Part shown: one piece after another, positions 1,224 to 20,447 of the stretch
How positions within the stretch are numbered: the first letter of the stretch is position 1
Layout of the letters: each line of letters begins with the position of its first letter
Assembly: GCA_025352065.1 (NCBI GenBank)
Contig: JANXUC010000170.1
Span: 1 to 48,497 of the forward strand
Reading direction: 5' to 3'
Length of the DNA stretch: 48,497 bases
DNA from: Acidobacteriaceae bacterium
GTDB lineage: Bacteria > Acidobacteriota > Terriglobia > Terriglobales > Acidobacteriaceae
Program-made: the position numbers and the translations under genes
Notes under the pieces: model-generated
The model's database searches: none
What the model was told of the DNA's origin: nothing
What the model saw: the letters and a program-made list of their open reading frames with translations, nothing else

Positions 1224-1249
1224 GGGCAAGGCACGAAGGTGCTTAGCCC
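1224..1249. terminator. Stem-loop between convergent genes
   Basis: Bases 1224-1234 and 1239-1249 form an 11-base-pair stem (GGGC-A-AGGCAC with GTGCTT-A-GCCC) with one mismatch, one wobble pair and a GAAG loop. It lies between the end of the receptor gene and the stop codon of the leftward gene and overlaps that stop. There is no T-run on either side, so it may be a bidirectional terminator, an mRNA 3'-end stabiliser or a dispersed repeat hairpin. Confidence 0.4.
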
Positions 1250-1818
1250 GCATCTTCTGACACCGGAATTCCAGATGCTAGCCACTGTTCCAGCAACTGC
1301 GGGACTTTCGCGCCCTCCAGCGTTCTGCGCATGGCGTCAAGTGCCGTAATGCGCGCGCGTTCTCCACGGCCACGAAACCCAATCCAGTAGGGAACGTGCA
1401 GATAGCCGGCGAGCGGCTTGGCGGAAATCTCCAGGTTGCGCAGCTTGAAGAATCCCTTGCTAAACAACACGCGCCGGAGTTTTTCGATGAGCAGTTTTTG
1501 CGCAGGCTCGTCTTCGAGGCGCGGCTCCAGGCAGTTACGCGTGTTGATTTCCATGATTTCTCGATCTTGGGGCAGATGCTCGAACTGGTAGAGATCGAGC
1601 ATGCCAAGCACGGCTTCAATGGCAACCAACCTGTGATCTGTTTTCCCGGAGTTTGTGATTTCCACTTCGAAAACACGGAACGGAATGTAGAAATCGGCAA
1701 TCGAGCGCAGCGGCCCGTAGGCAAGGCTACGCGCGAAGCCGAGTGGCCCGCGCGTAGTGAACTGTTCCAGCGCTTCCTGGCGTGTAACGTTGGGACGCAG
1801 ACTGCGAATTTGTGGCAT
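1243..1818 (-). CDS. Conserved-looking hypothetical protein, 191 aa
   Basis: I do not recognise a named family. The protein is soluble: it has no signal peptide and no membrane segment. The composition looks like a real folded protein, with mixed charge and regular hydrophobic spacing; examples are FYIPFRVFEVEITNSG near residue 43 and LAGYLHVPYWIGFRGRG near residue 140. The start is the ATG at 1818; a TTG sits immediately upstream at 1821. It begins four bases after the TAA of the sodium/solute symporter gene on the same strand, so the two are probably translationally coupled. The FxVEI/YWIGF pattern suggests a beta-rich domain, but no function can be assigned. The neighbouring symporter hints at a transport- or membrane-linked accessory role, which is inference only. 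Confidence 0.7.
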   Translation of the reverse strand: MPQIRSLRPNVTRQEALEQFTTRGPLGFARSLAYGPLRSIADFYIPFRVFEVEITNSGKTDHRLVAIEAVLGMLDLYQFEHLPQDREIMEINTRNCLEPRLEDEPAQKLLIEKLRRVLFSKGFFKLRNLEISAKPLAGYLHVPYWIGFRGRGERARITALDAMRRTLEGAKVPQLLEQWLASGIPVSEDAG

Positions 1819-1822
1819 CAAG

Positions 1823-3517
1823 TTACGCGAAATGAATCCATAATCCGATCACGGTTGCCAGCAACGCCAGACTCGCAACCACGTTGATGCGGTGTTCGAA
1901 AGCGGTTTCCGCGGCGGGTTTGTGATCGGACACCACAGGAGTGAAGTCCATCTTGTCATTCACGGTCGCGAAGGTGAGTCCCGCCAGTTTCTTGCGTTCC
2001 GGAGCGGGCGTTACCAGGCTCACGCCAATCAAAACTGCGGAACAGATAACAAACATGAAAATCGCGTAGTGCAGAAAATTCATGTCAATGAGCCAGCGCA
2101 GGATGGGAGATTCGATCTGATGTCCCGCGCCCAGGCGGTCCATGATTTCAACGATAAAGCGTACCGTACCAAGTACAAAGCCCGTCAGCAATGAACTGAT
2201 CGCACCTTGCGAGTTCATGCGCGGCCACAAAATACCAAGAATGAAACAGGATGCAATCGGCGGGCTGATGTAGGCCTGCACGCTCTGCAAATAAATGTAG
2301 AGCTGGCTGCTGATCAGGTGAATAAAAGGAACCCACAGCAAGCCAAGCAGAACCATCACGCCAGTCATGATGCGACCGAAGTTGACCAGGCTTTTTTCGC
2401 TCGCATCGGGCTTAATTTTCTTGTAGAAATCCAGAGTCACTAGCGTCGACGCGGAATTGAAGACCGAACTCATCGCGCCCATTAATGCCGCGAGAAGTGC
2501 TGCGATCATCAGTCCCACAAGGCCGGTCGGGAGCAGGTTGATGATCATGGTGGGATACGCTATGTCGCCATTCATCACCTGCCCGGCGGCGTTGAACTTG
2601 AACAGGTCGCGATAGAGGGCGACAGCGATGAGTCCCGGAAGCACCAGCATGAACACCGGAAGAATTTTCAGGAAGCCTGCGAAAATGGTGCCCAGTTTGG
2701 CGTGGCCTTCATCTTTGGCGGAGAGCACGCGCTGTACGATCACCTGATCTGTACACCAATACCAAATGCCTAAAATCGGAGCGCCAAAAAAGATTCCGGT
2801 CCACGGAAAATCCGGATCGGTGGACGGCTTCATCATGTGAAAGTAATTTGCCGGGAGGGCGGCGCGCAGGCTATCCATACCGCCGACGCGGTGGAGTCCG
2901 ATCACGGTCAGGACTACGGCTCCAGCGATCAGGATCAGCGTTTGCACAAGATCCGTATAGATCACGGCGGCGAGTCCGCCAGCCATGGTGTAAATTCCCG
3001 TCGCGATCACCAGGATGACGGCGACGGTGATCGGACTCCAACCAACAACGCGTTCCAGAACGATGCCTGCCGCGTAGAGATGAACGGATATCTTGGTGAA
3101 AATGTAGGCAAGAATCGAAATGCTGGCGAGATAGACGGCGCACGACCGGCTGAATCGGCGTTCTAAGAACTCTGGCATGGTAAAGACGTTGGCCCGTAAA
3201 TAGAACGGAACAAACACCCAGCCCAGAATCAAGAGCATCAGGCAAGCCAGCCACTCGAAGTGGCCGACGGCGAGTCCAGACGATGCGCCGGAGCCCGCCA
3301 GACCAATAAAGTGTTCGGTAGAAATGTTAGAAACGAAGAGTGAAGCGCCAATGGCAAACCAGCCCACGTCACGACCCGCAAGAAAATACTCCGTAGAAGT
3401 ACGTTCTTTTCGTGCGAAATAAAAACCGATCGCGAAAATGACCGCGAAATAGACCCCGATAATGGCGAGATCAATCCCTGCGAGTGTTTTGTGGGTTACG
3501 TGCGCCGCTTCTACCAT
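1823..3517 (-). CDS. Sodium/solute symporter, SSS family (SGLT-like)
   Basis: A 564-residue membrane protein of the sodium:solute symporter family, with the usual 13-14 hydrophobic segments. Family marks seen are YFLAGRDVGWFAIGASLF near residue 50, the SNIS/EHFIGLAG region after it, the ERRFSR segment, GGLAAVIYTDLVQ in the middle, and GIWYWCTDQVIVQRVLSAK, a segment typical of the sugar-transporting SGLT branch. The predicted role is sodium-driven import of a sugar or similar small solute across the inner membrane. A longer reading frame begins at a TTG at 3532, but the ATG at 3517 is preceded at good distance by GAGGAGG, so 3517 is the better start. The next gene leftward follows after four bases. 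Placement beside glycosidase genes supports a sugar substrate, but the exact one cannot be read from sequence. Confidence 0.9.
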   Translation of the reverse strand: MVEAAHVTHKTLAGIDLAIIGVYFAVIFAIGFYFARKERTSTEYFLAGRDVGWFAIGASLFVSNISTEHFIGLAGSGASSGLAVGHFEWLACLMLLILGWVFVPFYLRANVFTMPEFLERRFSRSCAVYLASISILAYIFTKISVHLYAAGIVLERVVGWSPITVAVILVIATGIYTMAGGLAAVIYTDLVQTLILIAGAVVLTVIGLHRVGGMDSLRAALPANYFHMMKPSTDPDFPWTGIFFGAPILGIWYWCTDQVIVQRVLSAKDEGHAKLGTIFAGFLKILPVFMLVLPGLIAVALYRDLFKFNAAGQVMNGDIAYPTMIINLLPTGLVGLMIAALLAALMGAMSSVFNSASTLVTLDFYKKIKPDASEKSLVNFGRIMTGVMVLLGLLWVPFIHLISSQLYIYLQSVQAYISPPIASCFILGILWPRMNSQGAISSLLTGFVLGTVRFIVEIMDRLGAGHQIESPILRWLIDMNFLHYAIFMFVICSAVLIGVSLVTPAPERKKLAGLTFATVNDKMDFTPVVSDHKPAAETAFEHRINVVASLALLATVIGLWIHFA

Positions 3518-3792
3518 GTTCCTCCTCGTCAATGCTGCGATGTGTTAACAGTGGTTCCAAAAGCAAATACGGATGGTCGGTGAGCACTGGGAAAGGCGCC
3601 AGGTTACCTGCCGTTTTGCCGCGCAGAGAGTATAGCCTAGCCGCATGTGTGGGAGGCAGTTCAAAAGCGAGGGCGGACTGGTTTTGTCCCTGTTCTTCCT
3701 GGCCTACCTGCAAATCATTGATTCCAAGACGATTTTTGGGTCTCCCTTTAGCGGTCGGGTTGTGCGAGAATCTCTGTAGGAGAACTGTTGCC
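3518..3792. other. Intergenic region between symporter and pqqA
   Basis: Divergent spacer of 275 bases that should hold the promoters of the leftward symporter and of the rightward pqqA. On the minus strand a TATACT hexamer (plus-strand 3629-3634) could be a -10 box for the symporter, but no good -35 box stands at the right distance. No convincing promoter is visible for pqqA. Longer open frames here have no family likeness apart from the pqqA end. Confidence 0.4.
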
Positions 3793-3870
3793 ATGTCTTG
3801 GATCACGCCTGAGTTCGAAGAAATCCTGCTGAACTGCGAAATCAACTCGTACGCCAGCGCCGAAGTCTAG
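3793..3870 (+). CDS. pqqA: PqqA, pyrroloquinoline quinone precursor peptide
   Basis: A 25-codon gene whose product starts MSWITPEFEEI and carries the core NCEINSYASAE. In PqqA peptides a glutamate and a tyrosine separated by three residues (E-x3-Y) are crosslinked by the radical-SAM enzyme PqqE and become the PQQ ring system. Here they are Glu16 and Tyr20, at the expected place in a peptide of typical length (22-29 residues). A strong ribosome binding site, TAGGAGA at 3777-3783, stands about 10 bases before the ATG. A larger frame in phase begins upstream but has no family likeness, and the internal site and peptide length argue for the short gene. No pqqB, C, D or E lies in the window, so the peptide must be processed by enzymes encoded elsewhere. 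PQQ serves periplasmic sugar and alcohol dehydrogenases, which fits the nearby sugar locus by inference. Confidence 0.85.
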   Translation: MSWITPEFEEILLNCEINSYASAEV

Positions 3871-3882
3871 TTCGCGTCCCTA

Positions 3883-3911
3883 GCGCGCTTGGAGGCATGT
3901 GCTCCGCGCGC
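3883..3911. terminator. Stem-loop downstream of pqqA
   Basis: GCGCGC-TT-GGAG (3883-3894) pairs with CTCC-GCGCGC (3902-3911) across a seven-base loop, leaving a two-base bulge on the left arm. It begins 12 bases after the pqqA stop codon. No T-run follows, so it may terminate pqqA transcription weakly or stabilise its short mRNA. Confidence 0.45.
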
Positions 3912-3976
3912 TTGGGCGCTCAACCCCTTCCCCTCCTTTCCCCCTTCCTTGCAACTCTTCCTCGCGACCGCGAGGC

Positions 3977-6460
3977 CTACGGTCGCGTGTAGGTCAGGCG
4001 GAGTTTGTGCGCGTTCCTATCCCAAGGAATGCCGTTGGAGACTAGCGTTCCAGCCCCAGTCTTCCACTTGGAAGCTGGCTTCCCATCGACCGTCGTGCTG
4101 CTGATCTTTCCATCCACGCCGTGGATCGTAAACCGCACTTCCTTGAACCAAGGCTGGTAGTGGCCTTCGGGTGCGTTCATCGTGATTTCAAGATGGTCGG
4201 CTGCGGCAACGCACGTAAAGCTCTGGCGCAGGTATTGGCCGTCGCGGTAAGCGAAGGTGTTGCCATCGTCCTGGTAAATTTCGCCGGAGCAATTCGGTCC
4301 CGGATAGACGTGCATTTCCAGTGGTCCTTGCGGAATCTCTTCCACGTGCTGTACCACGGCCTGTTGCGGCACGATTGACCCGGCTCTTACGAAGACAGGC
4401 AGCGTATCCAGTGGCGGTTCGACCTGGAACGTCTTACCGCCGTCGAGCTTGTTGCCCGTCCAGTAGTCGTACCAAGCGCCTTGCGGCAAGGTAACGTCGT
4501 AGGGCTGCAAGAAGCCCCAAACCTTAGGCGCAACCAAGAAACTGCGTCCAAACATGAATTCATCACCGTTACCGGCCAGCCCCAATTCTTTTGGGAATTC
4601 CATGAACATGGGACGCAGTAGGGGAATTCCCGTGCGCGAATTTTCCTCCATGCCGGTGTAGATGTAGGGGAGCAGTTTGTAGCGGGTTTCAATGTAGCGT
4701 TTGCGAATGGCTTCGTGCTCGGGGCCGTCGACCCAGGGCTCGCGGTTACGAGTCTCTTTGGCGGCGTGGTTGCGGTACATGGGATAGAACAGTCCCAGTT
4801 CGTGCCAGCGAGTCAGCAGTTCTGGATTCGGGCTGCCGTTGAAGCCGCCGACGTCGACGCCGGAGAACGCGTATCCGGAAATGCCCAGGTTAAGTAGTTG
4901 GTAGATCGAGAGGCGCATGTGGTTCCAACTGGCAGTATTGTCGCCAGTCCAAGTGGCAGCGTAGCGCTGGGTTCCGGCATAGGCCGCACGCGTAAGGACA
5001 AACGGGCGCTGGTTCGGATTGAGCTTGAGCAGGCCGTCGTAGGTGGCGCGCACGTTCTCCATGCCAAGCACGTTGTGGATTTCGCGATGGTCGGTCAGGC
5101 GGTCTTGTCCACCGTCCTCAGGGCGATCCTGGATATGGTGAATGTTCCCCAGCGGCATGGTCTTATCGGCGCGCTCGAAGATGGCAGGCTCATTCATGTC
5201 GTTCCAGGAGCCCCGAACGCCAGCCTTCATGTAGTCCGTGTAGAGGGTGCCCCACCAATCACGAGTTGTGGCGCGAGTGAAGTCTGGGAAGACGGAATCT
5301 CCGGGCCAGACTTTGCCGACGTAAACCGTGCCGTCGGGATTTTTGATGAAGTGATCGCCCTTAAGTCCTTCTTCGTAGGTCTTCGCGCCAGGAACGTGAG
5401 CGATATGCAAGTCAGTGATGGTGATGACCTTCATTCCTTGCTCGTCTAGATCCTTGATCATGCCTTCAAAGTTGGGGAAGCGTTCGCGATCCACCGTGAA
5501 GGGTCGATTTTTTTCCTGGTAGTCGATGTCGAGATAAACGGCGTCGGCAGGAATCTTACGGGTGCGCAATTCGTTCACAATCTCTCGCACACGGGCCTCA
5601 GGATAGTAGCTGTAGCGGCTTTGCTGGTATCCCAACGAGAATAGAGGCGGCAACGGTGCATGCCCGGTTAAGTCGGTGAAGCGTTCCACAATCTGCTTCG
5701 GGTCCGGGCCATAGATGAAGTAGTAGTTCAGTTCACCGCCGTCCGCGCCAAAAGAGAAGAAATCGCGCGATTCTTTGCCGATATCCCATGTGCTGCGGTA
5801 GGTGTTGTCGAGAAACAAGCCGTAGGCATTTCCATTTCGCAGGCCTACGAGGAATGGAATTGTTTTGTAGCGAGGGTCGGTGGATTCCTGATAGCCAAAA
5901 ACATCTTTGTTCCACATCGTAAACGATTCGTCGCGATGATCGAGAGAGCCGCCTTTATCGCCAAGGCCGAAATAGTGCTCGTCTTCCGGCATGGATTCCC
6001 ATACGCGGAAGGCTGTTCCATTGAAAGCGACAGGGTAGTCAGGATGCTCTTGCAAAACCGTAGCTCCCGCAGCATCCAGAAAGCTGATGCGCAGAGGGGA
6101 CTTGCGGATCGCAACTCGAACGTCGCCAGCGTCAACCTGGATCGAGTCTTTTTCCTCGCGCACGCGAACCTTGGGAGCTTTGTGATCGTTGGGTACGAGG
6201 GCAAACGAATGGTCGGCGGAAAAAGTTCCGCGGGGCGCGTATCGCACACGCACGATGTTGGAGGATACGGCAACAACGCGTACCTTAGAGGACCCTGCGG
6301 TCAGTTCGACCCCGTCGGGCAACACCGCGACCTTCGAGACGTTGCCGAAAGGCTGCCAGCCCGAGGCGAATCCGAAAGGCGACAGACTCAATAGAATGCC
6401 GAGCAGAAACGCACTGCTGCGGCGGTGCAGGGCTGATCTGTGCCGCGAGAGGGTTTGCAT
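3977..6460 (-). CDS. Secreted GH31 alpha-glucosidase
   Basis: An 827-residue glycoside hydrolase of family 31, with an N-terminal Sec-type signal sequence (basic start, then a hydrophobic stretch to about residue 32). Order: N-terminal beta-sandwich (about 35-250), TIM barrel (about 270-620), C-terminal beta domains. The nucleophile is Asp421 in WNDMNEP and the acid/base is Asp507 in TWTGDNTASW, both classic GH31 signatures. DIDYQ near residue 310 and HLRMSI-like context after the acid/base also fit. It should release glucose from the non-reducing ends of maltose-type or related alpha-glucosides in the periplasm or outside. The ATG at 6460 is preceded by TTAGGAGCC, a good ribosome site. It follows the regulator gene by 53 bases on the same strand and is probably cotranscribed with it. 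Alpha-xylosidase activity cannot be excluded by eye. Confidence 0.93.
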   Translation of the reverse strand: MQTLSRHRSALHRRSSAFLLGILLSLSPFGFASGWQPFGNVSKVAVLPDGVELTAGSSKVRVVAVSSNIVRVRYAPRGTFSADHSFALVPNDHKAPKVRVREEKDSIQVDAGDVRVAIRKSPLRISFLDAAGATVLQEHPDYPVAFNGTAFRVWESMPEDEHYFGLGDKGGSLDHRDESFTMWNKDVFGYQESTDPRYKTIPFLVGLRNGNAYGLFLDNTYRSTWDIGKESRDFFSFGADGGELNYYFIYGPDPKQIVERFTDLTGHAPLPPLFSLGYQQSRYSYYPEARVREIVNELRTRKIPADAVYLDIDYQEKNRPFTVDRERFPNFEGMIKDLDEQGMKVITITDLHIAHVPGAKTYEEGLKGDHFIKNPDGTVYVGKVWPGDSVFPDFTRATTRDWWGTLYTDYMKAGVRGSWNDMNEPAIFERADKTMPLGNIHHIQDRPEDGGQDRLTDHREIHNVLGMENVRATYDGLLKLNPNQRPFVLTRAAYAGTQRYAATWTGDNTASWNHMRLSIYQLLNLGISGYAFSGVDVGGFNGSPNPELLTRWHELGLFYPMYRNHAAKETRNREPWVDGPEHEAIRKRYIETRYKLLPYIYTGMEENSRTGIPLLRPMFMEFPKELGLAGNGDEFMFGRSFLVAPKVWGFLQPYDVTLPQGAWYDYWTGNKLDGGKTFQVEPPLDTLPVFVRAGSIVPQQAVVQHVEEIPQGPLEMHVYPGPNCSGEIYQDDGNTFAYRDGQYLRQSFTCVAAADHLEITMNAPEGHYQPWFKEVRFTIHGVDGKISSTTVDGKPASKWKTGAGTLVSNGIPWDRNAHKLRLTYTRP

Positions 6461-12174: not shown

Positions 12175-13884
12175 TTATTTCGTGACGTTCGCGATGTAAA
12201 CGCCGAACGGTGGCAGAACAATACCGTCACCAGCAACAATGGCGTCTTTCAGCGAGATCGGCGAACTTAGCAAGCCGTTCGTCTTAGCGCCAGCGAATCC
12301 AGAGCTGCTCAGATCGACGCTAACTCTCTGTTCGATTCCTGACATATTTATGGCGACTAGTACAGCCTCGTCTTTGTATTTGCGGACGTACATCATCACG
12401 TTGGGGTCGGTCTCGTTCAGCGAAACGTAGCTGCCATCCAGCAGCGCATGGTTTGTGTGCCGCATCGCCAACAACTGCTTGTAAAACTGCAGCACAGAGT
12501 TTGAATCTTTCGCCTCCGAGGCCACGTTGTGCGTCGCGTGACTCGCTGGAACCGGTAGCCAGGGCGTTGCTATGCTAAAGCCAGCGTTGGTTCCATCCGT
12601 CCATTGCATGGGAGTGCGCTCGCCGTCACGACCGATTTCATTCGGCCATCCAGTGCGGCCGATGGGGTCCTTCACATCTTCTTTGCGCGTTGGGTTGTTG
12701 TTCTCCATCCCAATCTCTTCTCCGTAATACATAATCGCCGTGCCACGAAGCGTGAGATAGAGCCCCGCCAGCACCTTTGCAATTGCGTCGTTATTCTTGC
12801 CGTCGCCATAGCGGTTGTAGGAGCGGTCAATGTCGTGATTGCTAATGACGTACACCGGCCATCCACCCGCCGATTCCACCGCATTGATCTGGTTGCGGAA
12901 CTCAGGCGGAGAGAGCTTGTCGACTTTCGTAAACATGAAGTTCATCGGCATCTGCAATTCGTCGTTGTGCGGGCCATAGTATTCCTTGAGTTCCTCGATG
13001 TTCTTCGTCCAGGTTTCGCCAATCAGCACCGCGTCGGATTCATCCGCCACCTTCCGCAAACCGCGCAACGCATCGTGCATTTCAGGCAGCTTGGCGGTGT
13101 ACGTTTGATCGAGTAACGGATCGCCGAACTTATTTGTCCCCTCCAACGTCTGGCTATCGCGTAGTTTCTCGTCCTCGAACATTCTGTCCACGGCATCCAG
13201 ACGAAAGCCCGCGACGCCGCGTTTGTACCAGAAGCGGTTTACGTCTCCCATCGCCTTGACAACAGCCGGATTGCGCCAGTTGAGGTCCGGCTGCTCGGCG
13301 TAAAAAGCGTGGTAGTAATACTGGTTTGTCTTGGGGGCCAGCTTCCAGGCCGATCCGCCAAAAATGGAAATCCAGTTGTTCGGGGGTTGGCTCGGCCCCT
13401 TACCGTCGCGCCAGATGAACCAGTCGCGATGAGTTGCTTTACGGGAAGATTTCGAATCCAGAAACCATTTGTGCTGGTCGGAGGTGTGATTGACGACGAA
13501 ATCCAGAATGACGCGAATTCCTCGCTTCTTGCCTTCACTCACAAGGCGGTCAAAGTCCCGCATGGTTCCGTACACCGGATCGATGCTTTCATAATCGGAA
13601 ACGTCGTAGCCGAAATCCACTTGGGGAGAAGGGAAGAACGGCGAAATCCAAATCGCGTCGACGCCAAGCTCGTGCAAGTAGTCGAGCTTCGATGTGATGC
13701 CGCTCAAGTCGCCTGTGCCGTCATTGTTGCTGTCGACAAAACTGCGTGGATAGATTTCATAAAATACGGCATGTTGCCACCAGGCGTGGCCTTCGGTGTC
13801 ATTGCCTTTCGTTTGTGCGTTGAGCGAACAGCTCAATACTAGAACAGTCGTCAGGGTGATTAGCTGTGAGAAACGGTTTGACAT
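12175..13884 (-). CDS. Secreted GH13 alpha-glucosidase (oligo-1,6-glucosidase/alpha-glucosidase type)
   Basis: A 569-residue family 13 enzyme with a Sec signal peptide (hydrophobic residues 9-20, cleavage near LNAQ). The barrel shows AVFYEIYPRSF near residue 42, DFVVNHTSDQH (conserved region I), GFRLDAVDRMF with the nucleophile Asp230 (region II), LIGETW with the acid/base Glu290 (region III) and VISNHDIDR with the stabiliser Asp351 (region IV). The overall plan WWQHAVFYEIYPRSF plus GDLSGI resembles oligo-1,6-glucosidases, trehalose synthases and sucrose isomerases. The signal peptide and the sugar context favour an alpha-glucosidase that trims exported or environmental alpha-glucans or sucrose. 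AGGAGGTAAAT before the ATG is an almost perfect ribosome site. It follows the debranching-enzyme-like gene by 48 bases and is probably in its operon. Confidence 0.9.
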   Translation of the reverse strand: MSNRFSQLITLTTVLVLSCSLNAQTKGNDTEGHAWWQHAVFYEIYPRSFVDSNNDGTGDLSGITSKLDYLHELGVDAIWISPFFPSPQVDFGYDVSDYESIDPVYGTMRDFDRLVSEGKKRGIRVILDFVVNHTSDQHKWFLDSKSSRKATHRDWFIWRDGKGPSQPPNNWISIFGGSAWKLAPKTNQYYYHAFYAEQPDLNWRNPAVVKAMGDVNRFWYKRGVAGFRLDAVDRMFEDEKLRDSQTLEGTNKFGDPLLDQTYTAKLPEMHDALRGLRKVADESDAVLIGETWTKNIEELKEYYGPHNDELQMPMNFMFTKVDKLSPPEFRNQINAVESAGGWPVYVISNHDIDRSYNRYGDGKNNDAIAKVLAGLYLTLRGTAIMYYGEEIGMENNNPTRKEDVKDPIGRTGWPNEIGRDGERTPMQWTDGTNAGFSIATPWLPVPASHATHNVASEAKDSNSVLQFYKQLLAMRHTNHALLDGSYVSLNETDPNVMMYVRKYKDEAVLVAINMSGIEQRVSVDLSSSGFAGAKTNGLLSSPISLKDAIVAGDGIVLPPFGVYIANVTK

Positions 13885-13895
13885 ATTTACCTCCT

Positions 13896-13933
13896 GAGTG
13901 AAGTCTCCTGAGGGAAAGCTTTCCGAGTGAAGT
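13896..13933. repeat. Direct repeats flanking a palindrome, candidate operator
   Basis: Two copies of GAGTGAAGT (13896-13904 and 13925-13933) surround the perfect 12-base palindrome GGAAAGCTTTCC (13913-13924). The block lies directly upstream of the GH13 ribosome site. A palindrome with a central GC resembles LacI-family operators, so it may be a control site or an internal RNA hairpin between two cotranscribed genes. Confidence 0.35.
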
Positions 13934-16533
13934 TAAGGCCGCTTTCCCTTTGAACTGCTGGCTCCAAAATGTATCGTGATGCGCGCGGAAGTCCCGTGAG
14001 TCGGAACATCTTCACGCAGGCCGATGCGAATCGCGCCAGTACCCCCGCCGTGATTGACGAAGGCCCCGCCTTCGACGGAAGCAATCTCATCCGGGTTGCG
14101 AACGTACAAGTTTAGGCTGCTGTCTTCGGTTCCTGCTACTTCAAGCACCAAACTATCCTGGTTTGCAGTCCACGATTCCGAAACAACACGCGCTCCAAGA
14201 CTCCGACTCCCCAGAGGGGGTAGGTTGGAGGTTACGCCAAAATCAACGTCTCGCCGCAGATGGATCCGCAACTTGCTTGCGGTTGTGCCAATCGGAACAT
14301 GTACCTCAACGTGCTGATCTGAAGCAGTCTTGCGAATATGGAACGGCAGAGGCTTGCCGTCGATTTCCGCACTCACGACTTGTGCGCGTGCGCTGATCGC
14401 GGGTTCGAAATTGAGCACTACAGTATCTGAGCCAGCTCGACGAGCCTTTAGCGTGATCGTATCCGACGAGCGTTTGTAGTCGAGATCCACCGTCGAGTTG
14501 CCGATTCGCACGTTGCGGGCGTGGAATGAGTTCCAGTCGGCTGGAAGGTGCGGAGCAAGTGTTAGTTGTCCCGCCAGTGCATTCGCTTCTAACCCCAGCA
14601 TGCCCCGCAGAACGGGGCTTACGACCATCGCCGCCGACCAAATCTGGTGCGGCGAAGCTGTTGAGAGGGTTTGATAGTAGTCGCCTGAAAGAACTTCGGT
14701 GACGTGGCCGAGCGAACCATCTAAGGCCATCAGCGCATTCGCTCGCAGGTTTCCATATGCGGGAATCGCGCGGTGGTAGCGGTACTCGCCAACCGACGCC
14801 CAGCCCGTAAACAGCGGCCACACCGACCCGAAGTGATATCCGCCCGCGCCGTAACGCGCGTCCTTCGAAGAGATGATTCGCATGCCCCAATCGACCTGGT
14901 GCTCGGGTTTGGCGAGTTCGTCGATCATGCGATTGCCTTTGTCTTCATCCAGTAATCCGAACCACATCGGAACTGTAGCCAGCACGCTGGCTGTTTCTTC
15001 GCGCTTGTTGTTTTGATCGAGCGCGAACGCGTAGATGTTTTTCTCTGGCGACCAGAACGTCTGATTTAGCGCCGGTTCCTGGCGCTGGAATGCTTGTTCC
15101 AGCTTTACGACCTCATCTTGTTTGCCCGTGAGTCGAGCGAGATTCGAAAGCGCTCGCAAGGCTTCTGTGCCAAGTGAACTCTGATAGAGCTCGGTCTTTA
15201 CTGGAAGTAGCGGGCCACCTTCCACCCATCCGTGGCCAACGCCGATGTTCTTGGGAAATTCATTTTCGTCGTAGGTCGAACGCAGAAACTCATATGCGTG
15301 CCAAAGGTTGTCCCACTTTTCCTTTGCGAACGCGACATCGCCGCTCTGCTTCACGTAATCGTTCATCGTAATAATGAACAGAGGCGTTGCATCGGCGGAG
15401 GCGAAGCCATATGGAAAGTTCTGAAACCAGTCGACGAGGCTTGCTGTTTGTGCGATCTCGTGCGGAATCTTGCCGTCCGCTCGCTGAAACTTCGTGATGA
15501 AATCTAGTGCAGTCCGCGTGTTTGTAAAGTCGCCAGCGGAGTCGAGAGAAAGATCGGTCCACAAAGAATCGCGGCCGAAAAACCACGAGAATCCGGGGCG
15601 CTGATCGTTGCCAGACGTGCGGTATCCCGCCACCAATCCGGTGCCGAGGAACGGATTCTCTACCATACCCTGCAACACGCTCACGCGCGACCAGTCGTAG
15701 GCCTGCTGCAGTTGCGCGTCCGGCAGATCAAGGCTTACCGTCCGTTCTAAATACTTGCGGTAGTAATCGGCAGATTCGCGAAGAAGCTGGTCGTAACTGC
15801 CGGAGAGGTGCCGGTATGTCTTTTCGGCATCGTCGCGGCCCGTGACAGAGCCAGCGATCACGATAACCTTCGTTGCACGACCTTGTACCGTCCCGAGCCG
15901 CATTGAGCTTTCCAATGACGATGAATAATTTGTTACGTACTCCGCTTGAGGACTTGTCGCACTGGGCGATCCAACGAAAGCTGCGTACTTCTTCTGCTCT
16001 TCGCCGAAAGCGAACGCATTCAGATCCGCATCCCACTGCGCGTATGAGCCGCCTAGCGCGGCAGGCCATTCCAACTGGAAATCGCGTTCGAAGACCGCTT
16101 CCAGTTCCAACGGATAACTGCTCTCGATTTCGAATCGAATCACCGCGCCCGATTCGTGCAGAGGTACAAACATTGTTTCGTGAATTGAGAATGTATCGGC
16201 GGCATAAAGGATCGTGCTTGATTCCGGACTTACGGTGAGCGTACGAGCCAATGTCTCGGCGGGGATGGCGCGACCGCCCGTGCGGACGAAAAGATGGAAG
16301 TTGCGTAGAACCTTCAGCGGATAAACCCACGCCTCAAACTGGCCGGACTCCTTGCCAAAAAGCGCCGCCTTGGTTCCAACCGTGGGCAGGAATTCCCAAG
16401 AGCGCACCGGACGGGAGAGCTCCAGATCGTGATTGTCCTCCGCGCGAGCTAGAGAAATTGATGAGAAAGCGACGAGGAGAAGGACAAAACAGGTTAGGAG
16501 GGAAGGCGATTGTGACTTTGTTTTGACTGACAT
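13933..16533 (-). CDS. Secreted debranching-enzyme-like six-hairpin glycosidase
   Basis: An 866-residue protein with a Sec signal peptide (hydrophobic residues 12-30, cleavage near ARAED). The N-terminal half (about 35-260) is beta-rich, like the supersandwich domain of alpha/alpha-six-barrel glycosidases. The centre (about 280-680) is helical and carries WFFGRDSLWTD, ADGKIPHE, GVGHGWVEGGPLLPVKTELYQS and a late YHFGSVWPLFTGW motif, a pattern seen in amylo-alpha-1,6-glucosidase (glycogen debranching) relatives and GH15-like enzymes. The last 130 residues form an extra beta-rich part. The predicted role is hydrolysis of alpha-glucan branches or another glucoside outside the cytoplasm. The ATG at 16533 has a modest GGTGA site. 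The exact substrate is uncertain, since this clan also includes GH63 and GH78-type members. Confidence 0.8.
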   Translation of the reverse strand: MSVKTKSQSPSLLTCFVLLLVAFSSISLARAEDNHDLELSRPVRSWEFLPTVGTKAALFGKESGQFEAWVYPLKVLRNFHLFVRTGGRAIPAETLARTLTVSPESSTILYAADTFSIHETMFVPLHESGAVIRFEIESSYPLELEAVFERDFQLEWPAALGGSYAQWDADLNAFAFGEEQKKYAAFVGSPSATSPQAEYVTNYSSSLESSMRLGTVQGRATKVIVIAGSVTGRDDAEKTYRHLSGSYDQLLRESADYYRKYLERTVSLDLPDAQLQQAYDWSRVSVLQGMVENPFLGTGLVAGYRTSGNDQRPGFSWFFGRDSLWTDLSLDSAGDFTNTRTALDFITKFQRADGKIPHEIAQTASLVDWFQNFPYGFASADATPLFIITMNDYVKQSGDVAFAKEKWDNLWHAYEFLRSTYDENEFPKNIGVGHGWVEGGPLLPVKTELYQSSLGTEALRALSNLARLTGKQDEVVKLEQAFQRQEPALNQTFWSPEKNIYAFALDQNNKREETASVLATVPMWFGLLDEDKGNRMIDELAKPEHQVDWGMRIISSKDARYGAGGYHFGSVWPLFTGWASVGEYRYHRAIPAYGNLRANALMALDGSLGHVTEVLSGDYYQTLSTASPHQIWSAAMVVSPVLRGMLGLEANALAGQLTLAPHLPADWNSFHARNVRIGNSTVDLDYKRSSDTITLKARRAGSDTVVLNFEPAISARAQVVSAEIDGKPLPFHIRKTASDQHVEVHVPIGTTASKLRIHLRRDVDFGVTSNLPPLGSRSLGARVVSESWTANQDSLVLEVAGTEDSSLNLYVRNPDEIASVEGGAFVNHGGGTGAIRIGLREDVPTHGTSARITIHFGASSSKGKRP

Positions 16534-16649
16534 GAAGTTTCACCGCTCGGGTGCAGCCATGCGCTGCCGCTCAGCATCAAGTTACTATAGCTATCGAGGG
16601 CGAATTGTAGCACGGCACCATTCACTTGATCGCTCTGGGAGTCTTACCT

Positions 16650-18461
16650 TTGTCCGCATCGCGCCGCAAGTTCTTACAGTCACTGAGCCGTTCCGCGCTC
16701 GTGCTTCCGCTGGAAGGAGTACTGGCCGTGGCGTTACCTCCGCGCTTGTTCGGGCTTCCAGAAAATACTCCTCTACCAAAACTGGAAGATGATTTGGGAA
16801 TCAGCTTTCTGAATGTTGCGAAGGATGCCGGGCTGAATGCAAAGACGATTTTCGGCGGCGAACACAAGAATAAGTATCTGCTGGAAACGACTGGCTGTGG
16901 CGTCGCTTTCTACGATTACGATAATGATGGCTGGCTCGATATTTTCCTGGTCAACGGTACCCGGCTGGAAGGTTTTCCTGCGGGACAGGAGCCGACTTCC
17001 CATCTTTTCAAGAACAATCGTGACGGCACATTCACCGATGTCACTGCCAAAGCTGGGCTGACCCATAGCGGATGGGGCCAGGGAGTCTGCATCGGCGATT
17101 ACGACAACGACGGTTTCGAAGACCTGTTCGTTACCTACTTCGGCAAGAACGTTCTTTATCACAACAACGGCGATGGCACGTTTACTGATGTCAGCGAGAA
17201 GGCTGGCGTGGCGGGCAAGAAGACGCGCTGGGGAACAGGCTGCGCGTTTGTCGACTACGACAAAGATGGGCACCTCGATCTGTTCGTCGCAAACTACATT
17301 GATCTTGATCTCGCGACAGCGCCAGTTCCGGAATCGGGTCCTTGCCTGTATAAGGGCATGATGGTCGCTTGTGGGCCTCCTGGATTGACGGGCGGAAAGA
17401 ACATTCTTTACCACAACAACGGTGATGGTACGTTCACCGATGTTTCCGAAGCCGCCGGAATCACTTCGGCCAACGGCACTTTCGGACTCGGTGTGTTAGT
17501 GGCCGATCTCGATAACGACGGCTGGCCGGATATTTATGTGGCCAACGATTCCACGCCGAGCGCACTGTACCAAAACAAGAAGAACGGCAAGTTCGTCGAT
17601 ATAGGCATCGAGGCCGGATGCGCGCTCAGTTCTGACGGCAAGCCGCAAGCGGGCATGGGGATTTCCGCGGCGGACTATGATCTTGACGGTAATCTTGATT
17701 TGGTGAAAACGAATTTTGCTGGTGACACGCCGTCGCTGTATCACAATCGCGGTGGTGCTCAATTTGACGACGCAACTTTTACGGGCGGTTTGGGCGCGCA
17801 CACGCAATTTCTGGGTTGGGGTTGCGGCTTCTTCGATATGGACAACGACGGCTGGCCCGATATTTTGATTTGCAACGGCCACGTTTATCCCGAAGTCGAA
17901 CAACTGAAGACCGAAGCCGGATATGCTCAGCGAAAGCTGCTCTACAAGAACCTGCGAAATGGCCGTTTTGATGATGTTTCTTTCAAGGCAGGTCCAGGGA
18001 TCTCCGAGCCGTTTGCCTCACGTGGCTGTGCCTTCGGAGACTTCGATAACGACGGGGATTTGGATATTGTTGTGAATCCCGTGAATGACTATCCACAGCT
18101 TTTGCGTTGCGATTCAGGAACCGGAAACAACTGGATCAAGGTTCGAACTATCGGCGTGAAGTCGAATCGCAGCGGAATCGGCGCGAGAATACGTTGCGTC
18201 ACGCGTCCGCCCGATGAAAAAACTTCGCACTCGCAAATCGACGAGGTTCGCAGCGGCGGCGGGTATTTCTCGCAAAACGATCTTCGCATCCACTTCGGAA
18301 TTGGCAAGGCTACCAAAGTCGAGCTGTTGGAAGTGAAGTGGCCGAGTGGGCAGGTAGATACTTTGAAGGATCTCGCCGTGAATCACCTTGTATTTGTGAA
18401 AGAAGGCGAGGGGATTGTGCGGACGATGCAGTTTGGGAAGGATTCAAAGTCAACGAGATAG
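16650..18461 (+). CDS. CRTAC1-family protein (FG-GAP/VCBS repeats plus ASPIC/UnbV domain), Tat-exported
   Basis: A 603-residue exported protein. The start is taken as the TTG at 16650, with GGGAG eight bases upstream; the N-terminus then reads SASRRKFLQSL, a textbook twin-arginine signal. The body is a chain of FG-GAP-type repeats with calcium-loop sequences such as FYDYDNDGWLDIF, NNGDGTFTDVS and DYDKDGHLDLF, which build an integrin-like beta-propeller. The C-terminus carries the ASPIC/UnbV signature around RSGIGARIRC and ends with a WPSGQVDTL segment. In the family, function is not well defined; extracellular matrix-like binding or a carbohydrate-handling role has been suggested for relatives. 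It is convergent with a second member of the same family. An upstream TTG at 16626 is less likely. Confidence 0.88.
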   Translation: MSASRRKFLQSLSRSALVLPLEGVLAVALPPRLFGLPENTPLPKLEDDLGISFLNVAKDAGLNAKTIFGGEHKNKYLLETTGCGVAFYDYDNDGWLDIFLVNGTRLEGFPAGQEPTSHLFKNNRDGTFTDVTAKAGLTHSGWGQGVCIGDYDNDGFEDLFVTYFGKNVLYHNNGDGTFTDVSEKAGVAGKKTRWGTGCAFVDYDKDGHLDLFVANYIDLDLATAPVPESGPCLYKGMMVACGPPGLTGGKNILYHNNGDGTFTDVSEAAGITSANGTFGLGVLVADLDNDGWPDIYVANDSTPSALYQNKKNGKFVDIGIEAGCALSSDGKPQAGMGISAADYDLDGNLDLVKTNFAGDTPSLYHNRGGAQFDDATFTGGLGAHTQFLGWGCGFFDMDNDGWPDILICNGHVYPEVEQLKTEAGYAQRKLLYKNLRNGRFDDVSFKAGPGISEPFASRGCAFGDFDNDGDLDIVVNPVNDYPQLLRCDSGTGNNWIKVRTIGVKSNRSGIGARIRCVTRPPDEKTSHSQIDEVRSGGGYFSQNDLRIHFGIGKATKVELLEVKWPSGQVDTLKDLAVNHLVFVKEGEGIVRTMQFGKDSKSTR

Positions 18462-18507: not shown

Positions 18508-20289
18508 CTATTTCCGGGTAGAAGCAGTACCGGTGACCGCCGCGCCCGACCCTTCCTTCACTTCCTGAATCGAATCCGCAGCCAATCCATCCCAATGTTC
18601 CGTCAGCCCACTCGGCCAGCGCACAGTGAGGGAATCGATCTTCGTCGCTGTTCCCAAGCCAAAATGCACGCGCATATCGCTATTGGAGTCGTAGCTCGAT
18701 CCGCTGCGGACTTCATCGACCAAAATCCGTTTACCCACCTTCAACGTAAGCCGCGCTCCAATGCCATCGCGATTCGACTTCGTCCCCACTGTCTTAAAAG
18801 CGATCCAATGATTCGTCGAGCGAATCTGATTTGCCAGCAAGCTGGGACGTGCGCTCATATTGCTGACCACGGCTGACATGCGTCCGTCGTTCCATAAATC
18901 TCCTACTGCGAGTCCGCGAGCCGAGGCGGGCGTGCTGATTCCCAGCCCTGACGTGGAAGATAAGTCTGCAAACGTTCCATTTCCGTTATTGTGATAAAGC
19001 TCGCGAGGCTCCTGATAGTTGCTGCCAAGGTTGTGCTTGTCCACTTCGGGGTAGACGTGGCCGTTCACAATCAGCAAATCAGGCCAGCCATCGTTATCGA
19101 AATCGAAAAACATAGTGCCCCAGCCCAGATATTTCGTATAAAGCCCGAGTCCAGCAGTGAACGTCACGTCGGTGAAAGTGCCGTCGCCGTTGTTGTGGTA
19201 GAGCGTGGAGGTATCGTCGGAAAAATTAGTTTTGAAAATATCCAGCTTGCCGTCGCCATCATAGTCGGCAACAGTTGATCCCATCCCAGCCTGCGCGCGA
19301 CCGTCTTCGTTGAAGGCTGCGCCGGAGGTGACGGCCACATCGGTGAAGGTGCCGTCATGGTTATTGTGATAGAGGATGCTCGGCGTGCTGTCACAGGCAA
19401 TGTAGATGTCGGGCCAGCCGTCGTCGTCGTAGTCCAAAGTTGAAACACTAAAGGCGTAGTGGCCGTCCGTGCGGTCGATGCGTGCTTTCGTCGTAACGTC
19501 TTCAAACGTACCGTCACTGCGGTTGTGGTAAAGAATGTTCTTCGATCCGGCAAGCCCACGCGGCCCGCACATCACCGGGATGCCTTTCCACACGCAATTC
19601 GCGCGCTCTCCTGGCGCGGGTGCCGTAGCCAGATCGAAATCCACGTAGTTGGCAACGACTAAATCCAGATGGCCGTCGCGATCGTAGTCGACGAAGGCGC
19701 ATCCTGTACCCCATGCTTTCCCCGTGCCTGCCACACCGGATTTCTCCGCCACTTCGGAAAAAACTCCGTGGTCGTTGTGGTAGAGGCGATTTTTGCCGTA
19801 GTAGGTGACGTAAACATCTTCCCAGCCATCGTTGTCGTAATCGCCCGCGCATACGCCCTGACCCCACCCGCCGCCAGTGAGTCCTGCTTGCACAGTCACG
19901 TCGGTGAAGGTGCCGTCGTGATTGTTGTGATAAAGATGGTTGGTCGGCGCTGCATCTTTTGGCGCGCCAGACTTGTTGGCTTCCAGTGTGGTTCCATTGA
20001 CCAGCAGGATATCGGGCCAGCCGTCGTTGTCGTAGTCGAAAATCGCGACGCCCGTGCCGGTTGTTTCAATGATGTACTTTTTTGTGTCGAGGCCGCCGAA
20101 AACGTTTTCGGCGGTGAGGCCAGCCTTCTCGGCAATATCGACAAAGTTAGCGATCGGCGTAGGAGGGGCAGTCTGTGCTGCGGCGGGGAGCAAGAACCAT
20201 GCTGCAGCCAGCACCGCCAGGGCGAGATGTAGAGCCCAGATGCCTTTGCAACGACGGACCAGGTGGCGCGGGATTGCGGATAGCGTCAT
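18508..20289 (-). CDS. CRTAC1-family protein (FG-GAP/VCBS repeats plus ASPIC/UnbV domain), Sec-exported
   Basis: A 593-residue relative of the protein at 16650-18461, on the opposite strand. The preferred start is the ATG at 20289, giving a basic n-region (RHLVRRCK) and a long hydrophobic stretch ending in AAAQT, a Sec signal peptide; the open frame upstream to 20412 has no family likeness. Repeats with loops such as FDYDNDGWPDILLVNG, NNHDGTFTDVTV and DYDRDGHLDLVVANY cover most of the chain, and NRDGIGARLTL marks the C-terminal ASPIC/UnbV domain, ending in VRWPSGLTEHW. The two copies keep the same domain order and differ in export route. It is divergent from a long TPR protein gene, a pairing that may reflect joint work in the envelope (inference). 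Confidence 0.88.
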   Translation of the reverse strand: MTLSAIPRHLVRRCKGIWALHLALAVLAAAWFLLPAAAQTAPPTPIANFVDIAEKAGLTAENVFGGLDTKKYIIETTGTGVAIFDYDNDGWPDILLVNGTTLEANKSGAPKDAAPTNHLYHNNHDGTFTDVTVQAGLTGGGWGQGVCAGDYDNDGWEDVYVTYYGKNRLYHNDHGVFSEVAEKSGVAGTGKAWGTGCAFVDYDRDGHLDLVVANYVDFDLATAPAPGERANCVWKGIPVMCGPRGLAGSKNILYHNRSDGTFEDVTTKARIDRTDGHYAFSVSTLDYDDDGWPDIYIACDSTPSILYHNNHDGTFTDVAVTSGAAFNEDGRAQAGMGSTVADYDGDGKLDIFKTNFSDDTSTLYHNNGDGTFTDVTFTAGLGLYTKYLGWGTMFFDFDNDGWPDLLIVNGHVYPEVDKHNLGSNYQEPRELYHNNGNGTFADLSSTSGLGISTPASARGLAVGDLWNDGRMSAVVSNMSARPSLLANQIRSTNHWIAFKTVGTKSNRDGIGARLTLKVGKRILVDEVRSGSSYDSNSDMRVHFGLGTATKIDSLTVRWPSGLTEHWDGLAADSIQEVKEGSGAAVTGTASTRK

Positions 20290-20447
20290 ACTCAATTGTG
20301 ATACTAGCAGGGCAGGAAAAGCCGGCAAACTCGGTTGGGTTGCTTTGCGAGGACGGGGCGCCCACGCGACTGCCAACAAGATGCTAACGCTACAAAAATC
20401 CGGTGCTACCAAAGACCGGTATTTCTTGACTTAAGGAACTTGCGTAC

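Follow-up and report, generated by a model that had tools for sequence, protein, structure and literature searches.

The forward strand of the stretch of DNA analysed here (the window, 48.5 kb, which is contig C101 of genome G000) carries a genuine pqqA gene at positions 3793 to 3870, stop codon included, encoding the 25-residue precursor peptide of PQQ, and the observation made in an earlier note on this DNA is confirmed. The genes pqqB, pqqC, pqqD and pqqE lie on another contig of the same assembly, C15, and we consider it very probable that this is an authentic pqqA parted from the other genes of the PQQ pathway, read as a short transcript of its own and served by the PqqB, PqqC, PqqD and PqqE of C15. 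The gene has been displaced repeatedly in this bacterial family, and one genome retains a fossil of the process.

Results

Identity and conservation of the peptide

Translation of positions 3793 to 3870 on the forward strand gives MSWITPEFEEILLNCEINSYASAEV followed by a stop codon, which bears out the frame, the coordinates and the 25 codons plus stop that the earlier note had given, as well as its Glu16 and Tyr20, the two residues of the E-x3-Y cross-link spacing. A ribosome-binding site, TAGGAGAA, is read directly at 3777 to 3784 of the same strand, 8 nt 5' of the ATG; the note too had pointed to a ribosome site. The similar GAGGAGAACTGC precedes the detached pqqA copy in a relative, G013. 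Alignment to the PqqA families, one of the checks that the note proposed, placed the peptide above the cut-off of the NCBIfam model TIGR02107 (24.6 bits, cut-off 20) and just below that of Pfam PF08042 (19.5 bits, E 0.0011; gathering 21.1 bits), the latter being a model threshold rather than a defining chemical trait of the PqqA family. When the whole assembly (4,247,604 bases in 183 contigs, 98.5% complete) was searched in six frames with TIGR02107, the window gene was the sole match above the cut-off (22.0 bits, E 0.00116) and the runner-up reached 12.4 bits; the further pqqA copies for which the note had suggested looking did not appear above this cut-off. We agree with the note that the gene is small enough to escape gene callers, and in the accessible part of a published survey pqqA was annotated in 42 of 53 islands and found by search in the remaining 11 (PMC9088363).

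Thirteen positions, including C15-E16-I17-N18-S19-Y20, are invariant across ten PqqA peptides taken from G000 and seven related genomes. Codon-level comparison was made with the best 80 of 114 relatives confirmed in a scan of named genomes, 79 of them titled Acidobacteriota (Candidatus Sulfotelmatobacter, Edaphobacter, Granulicella and MAGs) and one an alphaproteobacterial MAG. Together with the window these make 81 sequences, 80 of them distinct at the nucleotide level; six Edaphobacter/Granulicella sequences were extended by one codon at the 5' end, where that register contains no start codon. Residues W3, P6, E10, C15, E16, S19 and Y20 are unchanged in all 80 distinct sequences (window counted, best 80 of 114 relatives), and each of these with more than one possible codon is encoded by more than one across this set. 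Where codons of the window differ from those of the best 80 of 114 relatives, 43% of the changes are synonymous, against 14% when the same number of changes is made at random. Hence the conservation in relatives and the gene-like pattern of substitution, both of which the note had named as tests of its claim, are found, and the coding sequence of pqqA is under strong codon-level constraint.

These comparisons also bear on whether the 25 codons are simply a chance open frame that resembles PqqA, a view favoured by the open frame of 135 codons in which pqqA is contained and by another of 124 codons on the opposite strand. With a profile made from the relatives' 80 peptides, window excluded, the window frame is recovered at E 2.9e-16 and the next best of the six window frames at 0.6; this leave-one-out result, the single genome match above the cut-off and the synonymous excess refute the chance frame for practical purposes, and we give it almost no credence.

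The PQQ pathway on contig C15

Profile searches of G000 located pqqB, pqqC, pqqD and pqqE, in that order, in a single cluster on C15. PqqB scores 340 bits against an NCBIfam cut-off of 245, PqqC 330 against 240, and PqqE, the only such match above the cut-off in the genome, 521.7 against 381.35; PqqD, at 45.1 bits, falls just below its cut-off of 46 and is placed between pqqC and pqqE as expected. The frames of pqqA, B, C, D and E are all open. Within the 48.5 kb window no match to pqqB, C, D or E was found at E <= 1e-3, in keeping with the note's statement that pqqBCDE is not nearby. The note's term 'orphan' does not hold at the level of the genome: with pqqBCDE on C15 and none in the window, the gene is displaced rather than orphan. 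The search for pqqBCDE that the note recommended thereby rules out an absence of pqqCDE and, since PqqB, C, D and E are encoded on C15, the PQQ production that it had implied is likely. No pqqA-like reading lies 5' of pqqB on C15, where the sequence, judged from its residues, looks like part of an aldo/keto reductase.

Surroundings of the displaced gene

Upstream of pqqA stands a divergent sodium:solute symporter gene (1823 to 3532, reverse strand; PF00474, 331 bits, and synteny), beyond which is a gene without a family match (1243 to 1821, reverse strand). The downstream neighbour is a convergent gene for a glycoside hydrolase of family 31 (GH31; 3977 to 6460, reverse strand; PF01055, 390 bits), and beyond it follow a GntR/LacI-type regulator, a GH32 protein, an alpha-amylase-family protein, a major facilitator transporter and further glycosidases. 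Between this divergent and this convergent gene, pqqA would be read as its own short transcript. Folding predicts a stable hairpin on the forward strand at 3874 to 3919, directly 3' of the stop codon and with no clear T tract behind it, and positions 3868 to 3990 fold at -44.9 kcal/mol (z -2.72 against shuffles). The hairpin is a possible transcript end; it was not listed in a scan for consensus terminators, and a scan for promoter consensus found none. Farther along the window, 16626 to 18461 and 18508 to 20412 encode two FG-GAP/ASPIC-UnbV proteins on opposite strands, adjoining a TPR protein.

Recurrent displacement across the family

In a family sample of 150 genomes, 40 yielded PqqE and 44 a PqqA match at E <= 0.01, or 43 after removal of one stop-containing match; three of 61 PqqA rows were dropped before counting, namely an 11-residue match (G060), a stop-containing match (G041) and a stop-containing copy (G125). 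Among the 40 PqqE genomes, pqqA lies within 6 kb of pqqE in 29, four of which have extra copies, and only elsewhere in ten; the remaining genome, G086, has none, its PqqE being at a contig edge. Six of the ten are clearly displaced cases (G000, G005, G097, G101, G138 and G158), in which the stretch before pqqB was read and contains no intact pqqA. In G060, a pqqA-pqqB pair and six more pqqA copies are found on contigs other than that of pqqCDE, and in G052 and G091 the contig stops inside the pqq cluster. The tenth, G120, was rejected as a displaced case: pqqA-pqqB-pqqC run to a contig end and pqqD and pqqE are on another contig, the operon being cut between the two.

Genome G101 retains a decayed pqqA directly before pqqB (L251, 6037 to 6075), with Tyr20 replaced and the start lost, and has its intact copy on another contig, while G013 has two copies, one in the operon and one outside. 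Taken together, these support a duplication of pqqA after which the operon copy was lost. In G021 the gene is divergent from pqqBCDE. Since displaced copies recur in the family, the window pqqA, though genuine, is fairly commonplace. A pqqA with no accompanying PqqE match is seen in four genomes (G092, G109, G126 and G133); in the last three, one pqqA copy is followed by pqq genes to or near the end of fragmentary contigs. The other, G092 (97% complete; L122-L123), has two pqqA copies, one of them preceding a pqqB, an intact TIGR03075 protein and no PqqE match.

It might be asked if pqqA is near pqqBCDE in G000 after all, with C15 and C101 adjoining and the gap between them a break in the assembly. 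C15 terminates about 100 bp past pqqE and pqqA is 3.8 kb from the end of its own contig; were the two to adjoin, as little as about 4 kb might separate the gene from pqqE. The pqqABCDE cluster of G012 is preceded by homologues of the symporter gene and, after it, of the gene at 1243 to 1821, and that of G013 is preceded, at about 5 kb, by homologues of window positions 12175 to 16533; in relatives, then, genes of the window region have stood beside the pqq cluster. The operon of G120 is split by just such a contig break. Against adjacency, no pqqA precedes pqqB on C15, no word of 15 bases or longer is common to the last 300 bases of C15 and the 2 kb at either end of the window, and separated pqqA copies occur in relatives with long contigs, for example G158. 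We regard adjacency as improbable, if worth bearing in mind; it would overlap in part with the separation that we prefer, pqqA still not being placed before pqqB.

Candidate users of PQQ

The only quinoprotein gene of the methanol/ethanol type (TIGR03075) in G000 lies on C15 at about 13305 to 14750 (about 4300 to 5750 of L129), and it is broken, with two TGA, one TAG and one TAA in the main match. Its open piece scores best with TIGR04528, acido-empty-quinoprotein group A, and intact relatives occur in other genomes. PF13360, which matched an E. coli control, has two matches only in G000, a piece of this broken gene and one propeller, and turned up no membrane glucose dehydrogenase. A 370-residue protein on contig C93 exceeds the Pfam cut-offs for GSDH (57.9 bits) and TrAA12 (43.9 bits), and scores 22 bits to the glucose/sorbosone PQQ family TIGR03606 and 45.7, below cut-off, to the PVC-type TIGR02604; this GSDH/TrAA12-like protein is the only candidate sugar dehydrogenase found, and a weak one. 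Searches with PF13360, PF07995, TIGR03075 and PF22807 found no intact, clearly PQQ-dependent enzyme in G000.

The note had proposed that the cofactor is used by a glucose dehydrogenase. That such an enzyme is fed by the local glycosidases is a guess which these data do not support, and what links PQQ to the sugars released by those neighbours is adjacency alone. Overall, the note's interpretation survives as regards an easily missed pqqA without adjoining pqqBCDE and the likely production of PQQ; orphan status does not hold, and use by a glucose dehydrogenase is unsupported.

A broken quinoprotein gene, with no recognised intact PQQ enzyme besides the weak GSDH-like protein, is what one would see if the peptide were a relic in a lineage that is losing PQQ synthesis and its enzymes. 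The open frames of pqqA, B, C, D and E and the retention of every invariant residue in pqqA argue against decay, and we think it quite unlikely. Elsewhere in the family, TIGR03075 is matched above its cut-off in eight of 14 PqqE genomes checked, by lower matches only in three (G000, where the gene is broken, G012 and G101), and not at E <= 1e-30 in the other three (G005, G009 and G021); it is also above cut-off in two of 13 genomes without a PqqE match (G014 and G092).

Neighbourhoods of pqqA and the propeller genes

We counted by eye the contexts of 80 pqqA loci, the best 80 of 114, chosen by similarity to ten peptides and from genomes partly shared with the 150-genome sample. Within these best 80 of 114, pqqA is beside pqqB or pqqC at 27 loci and in one conserved neighbourhood (gene clusters c3 and/or c4) at 40, where the lone gene is flanked by what we take to be genes for a GAF-domain-like protein and an MraY/WecA-like transferase. 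A further nine follow a propeller-like or BNR-like gene by no more than about 100 nt, two lie 3-4 kb upstream of a propeller-like gene, and two have no such context. The window gene fits none of the three settings (pqqB or pqqC, conserved neighbourhood, propeller). At L109, L112, L113, L180 and others, the lone pqqA of the conserved neighbourhood adjoins polysaccharide-type genes.

Genome G060 has seven pqqA copies, an eighth match of eleven residues being omitted. Six are 20-26 nt behind propeller-like or BNR-repeat genes and have a good ribosome site (L133, L134, L138, L145, L155 and L185), as if co-operonic, and the seventh precedes pqqB; the copies are partly segmental duplicates, with the upstream 300 nt up to 82% alike, so that we place no weight on a chance estimate for this arrangement, which took the copies as independent and supposed 40 propeller/BNR genes in 4000. 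Further copies within about 100 nt behind propeller or BNR genes occur in other genomes (L144, L164 and L199). The propeller-like proteins are probably secreted, to go by their N termini. Those scanned match PQQ_2 or PQQ best in Pfam, below the cut-off, or have no match, and two have Big_1 domains; the BNR-type proteins match BNR_2 above its cut-off. A structural model of one propeller has a pLDDT of 61, and a fold search of the PDB returned quinohemoprotein alcohol dehydrogenases first, then a lanthanide alcohol dehydrogenase, followed by BamB and numerous other propellers, at an rmsd of about 12; with such values, and with PQQ-free propellers such as BamB close behind, the model identifies no more than the propeller class. 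Members of the propeller family are matched in 18 of 20 genomes searched, including G004 and G045, neither of which gave a PqqE match, so that most of its members need not use PQQ. G000 itself has five matches, one of them short.

The position of pqqA behind propeller genes in relatives may hint that PqqA acts for a product or client outside the classical dehydrogenases. Six of the seven G060 copies are so placed, the PqqE genomes G005, G009 and G021 lack a TIGR03075 match at E <= 1e-30, and G000 encodes members of the propeller family. The window gene, however, has no propeller neighbour, the family is present in G004 and G045, and the structural model, which has low confidence, is also similar to BamB; such a client seems to us unlikely. 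Equally doubtful is the broader proposal that pqqA in the acidobacterial family is a mobile cistron, settling beside genes for cofactor-dependent proteins; these would include the probably secreted beta-propellers, as new enzymes dependent on PQQ or on a cofactor derived from PqqA, and the window copy would have settled at a sugar locus.

Discussion

From the sequences compared here, a displaced, apparently monocistronic pqqA most likely supplies PqqD and PqqE in trans. In the accessible part of the literature, PqqA is bound to PqqD and cross-linked between Glu16 and Tyr20 by PqqE, after which a protease, PqqB and PqqC act (PMC10906245). The window PqqA would likewise be bound by PqqD, cross-linked at Glu16 and Tyr20 by PqqE, and then acted on by a protease, PqqB and PqqC, with PqqB, C, D and E provided in trans from the C15 cluster. 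The similar GC content of the window (0.556) and of 7.4 kb of C15 (0.552) is weak evidence in favour of this reading. The parting may have come about by duplication of pqqA with loss of the operon copy, or by a move of pqqBCDE. An available extract from another study puts PqqA expression 20-fold above that of PqqC or PqqE (PMC2294125), and a separate short gene would be one way to reach such an excess.

A practical consequence is that a PQQ maker may be wrongly scored as lacking pqqA if only the operon is inspected. Furthermore, the propeller genes trailed by pqqA copies are concrete candidates for PQQ-consuming enzymes in G000 and in a few relatives that yielded no methanol/ethanol-type quinoprotein. 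We recognised no report of displaced pqqA in Acidobacteriota among the titles and abstracts listed by searches of the open-access literature. Multi-copy pqqA is already known; the link between pqqA and propeller genes in relatives, in which the window copy is not included, could be new.

Compared with the PqqA family as modelled by TIGR02107 and PF08042, the window gene is alike in encoding a short peptide with Glu-x3-Tyr at 16 and 20 in a genome that encodes PqqB, C, D and E, and differs in standing outside the pqq operon, in belonging to the acidobacterial CEINSY sequence group and in falling just below the Pfam cut-off. With respect to TIGR04528 and TIGR03075, a gene of this kind is present on C15 of G000, but it is not intact and is not near pqqA. 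A published parallel is in Methylophilaceae, for which the accessible text reports 3-12 pqqA copies and typically one set of the other pqq genes (PMC4109929): there, as here, pqqA does not pair one-to-one with the other pathway genes, whereas G000 has a single copy, which is itself the displaced one.
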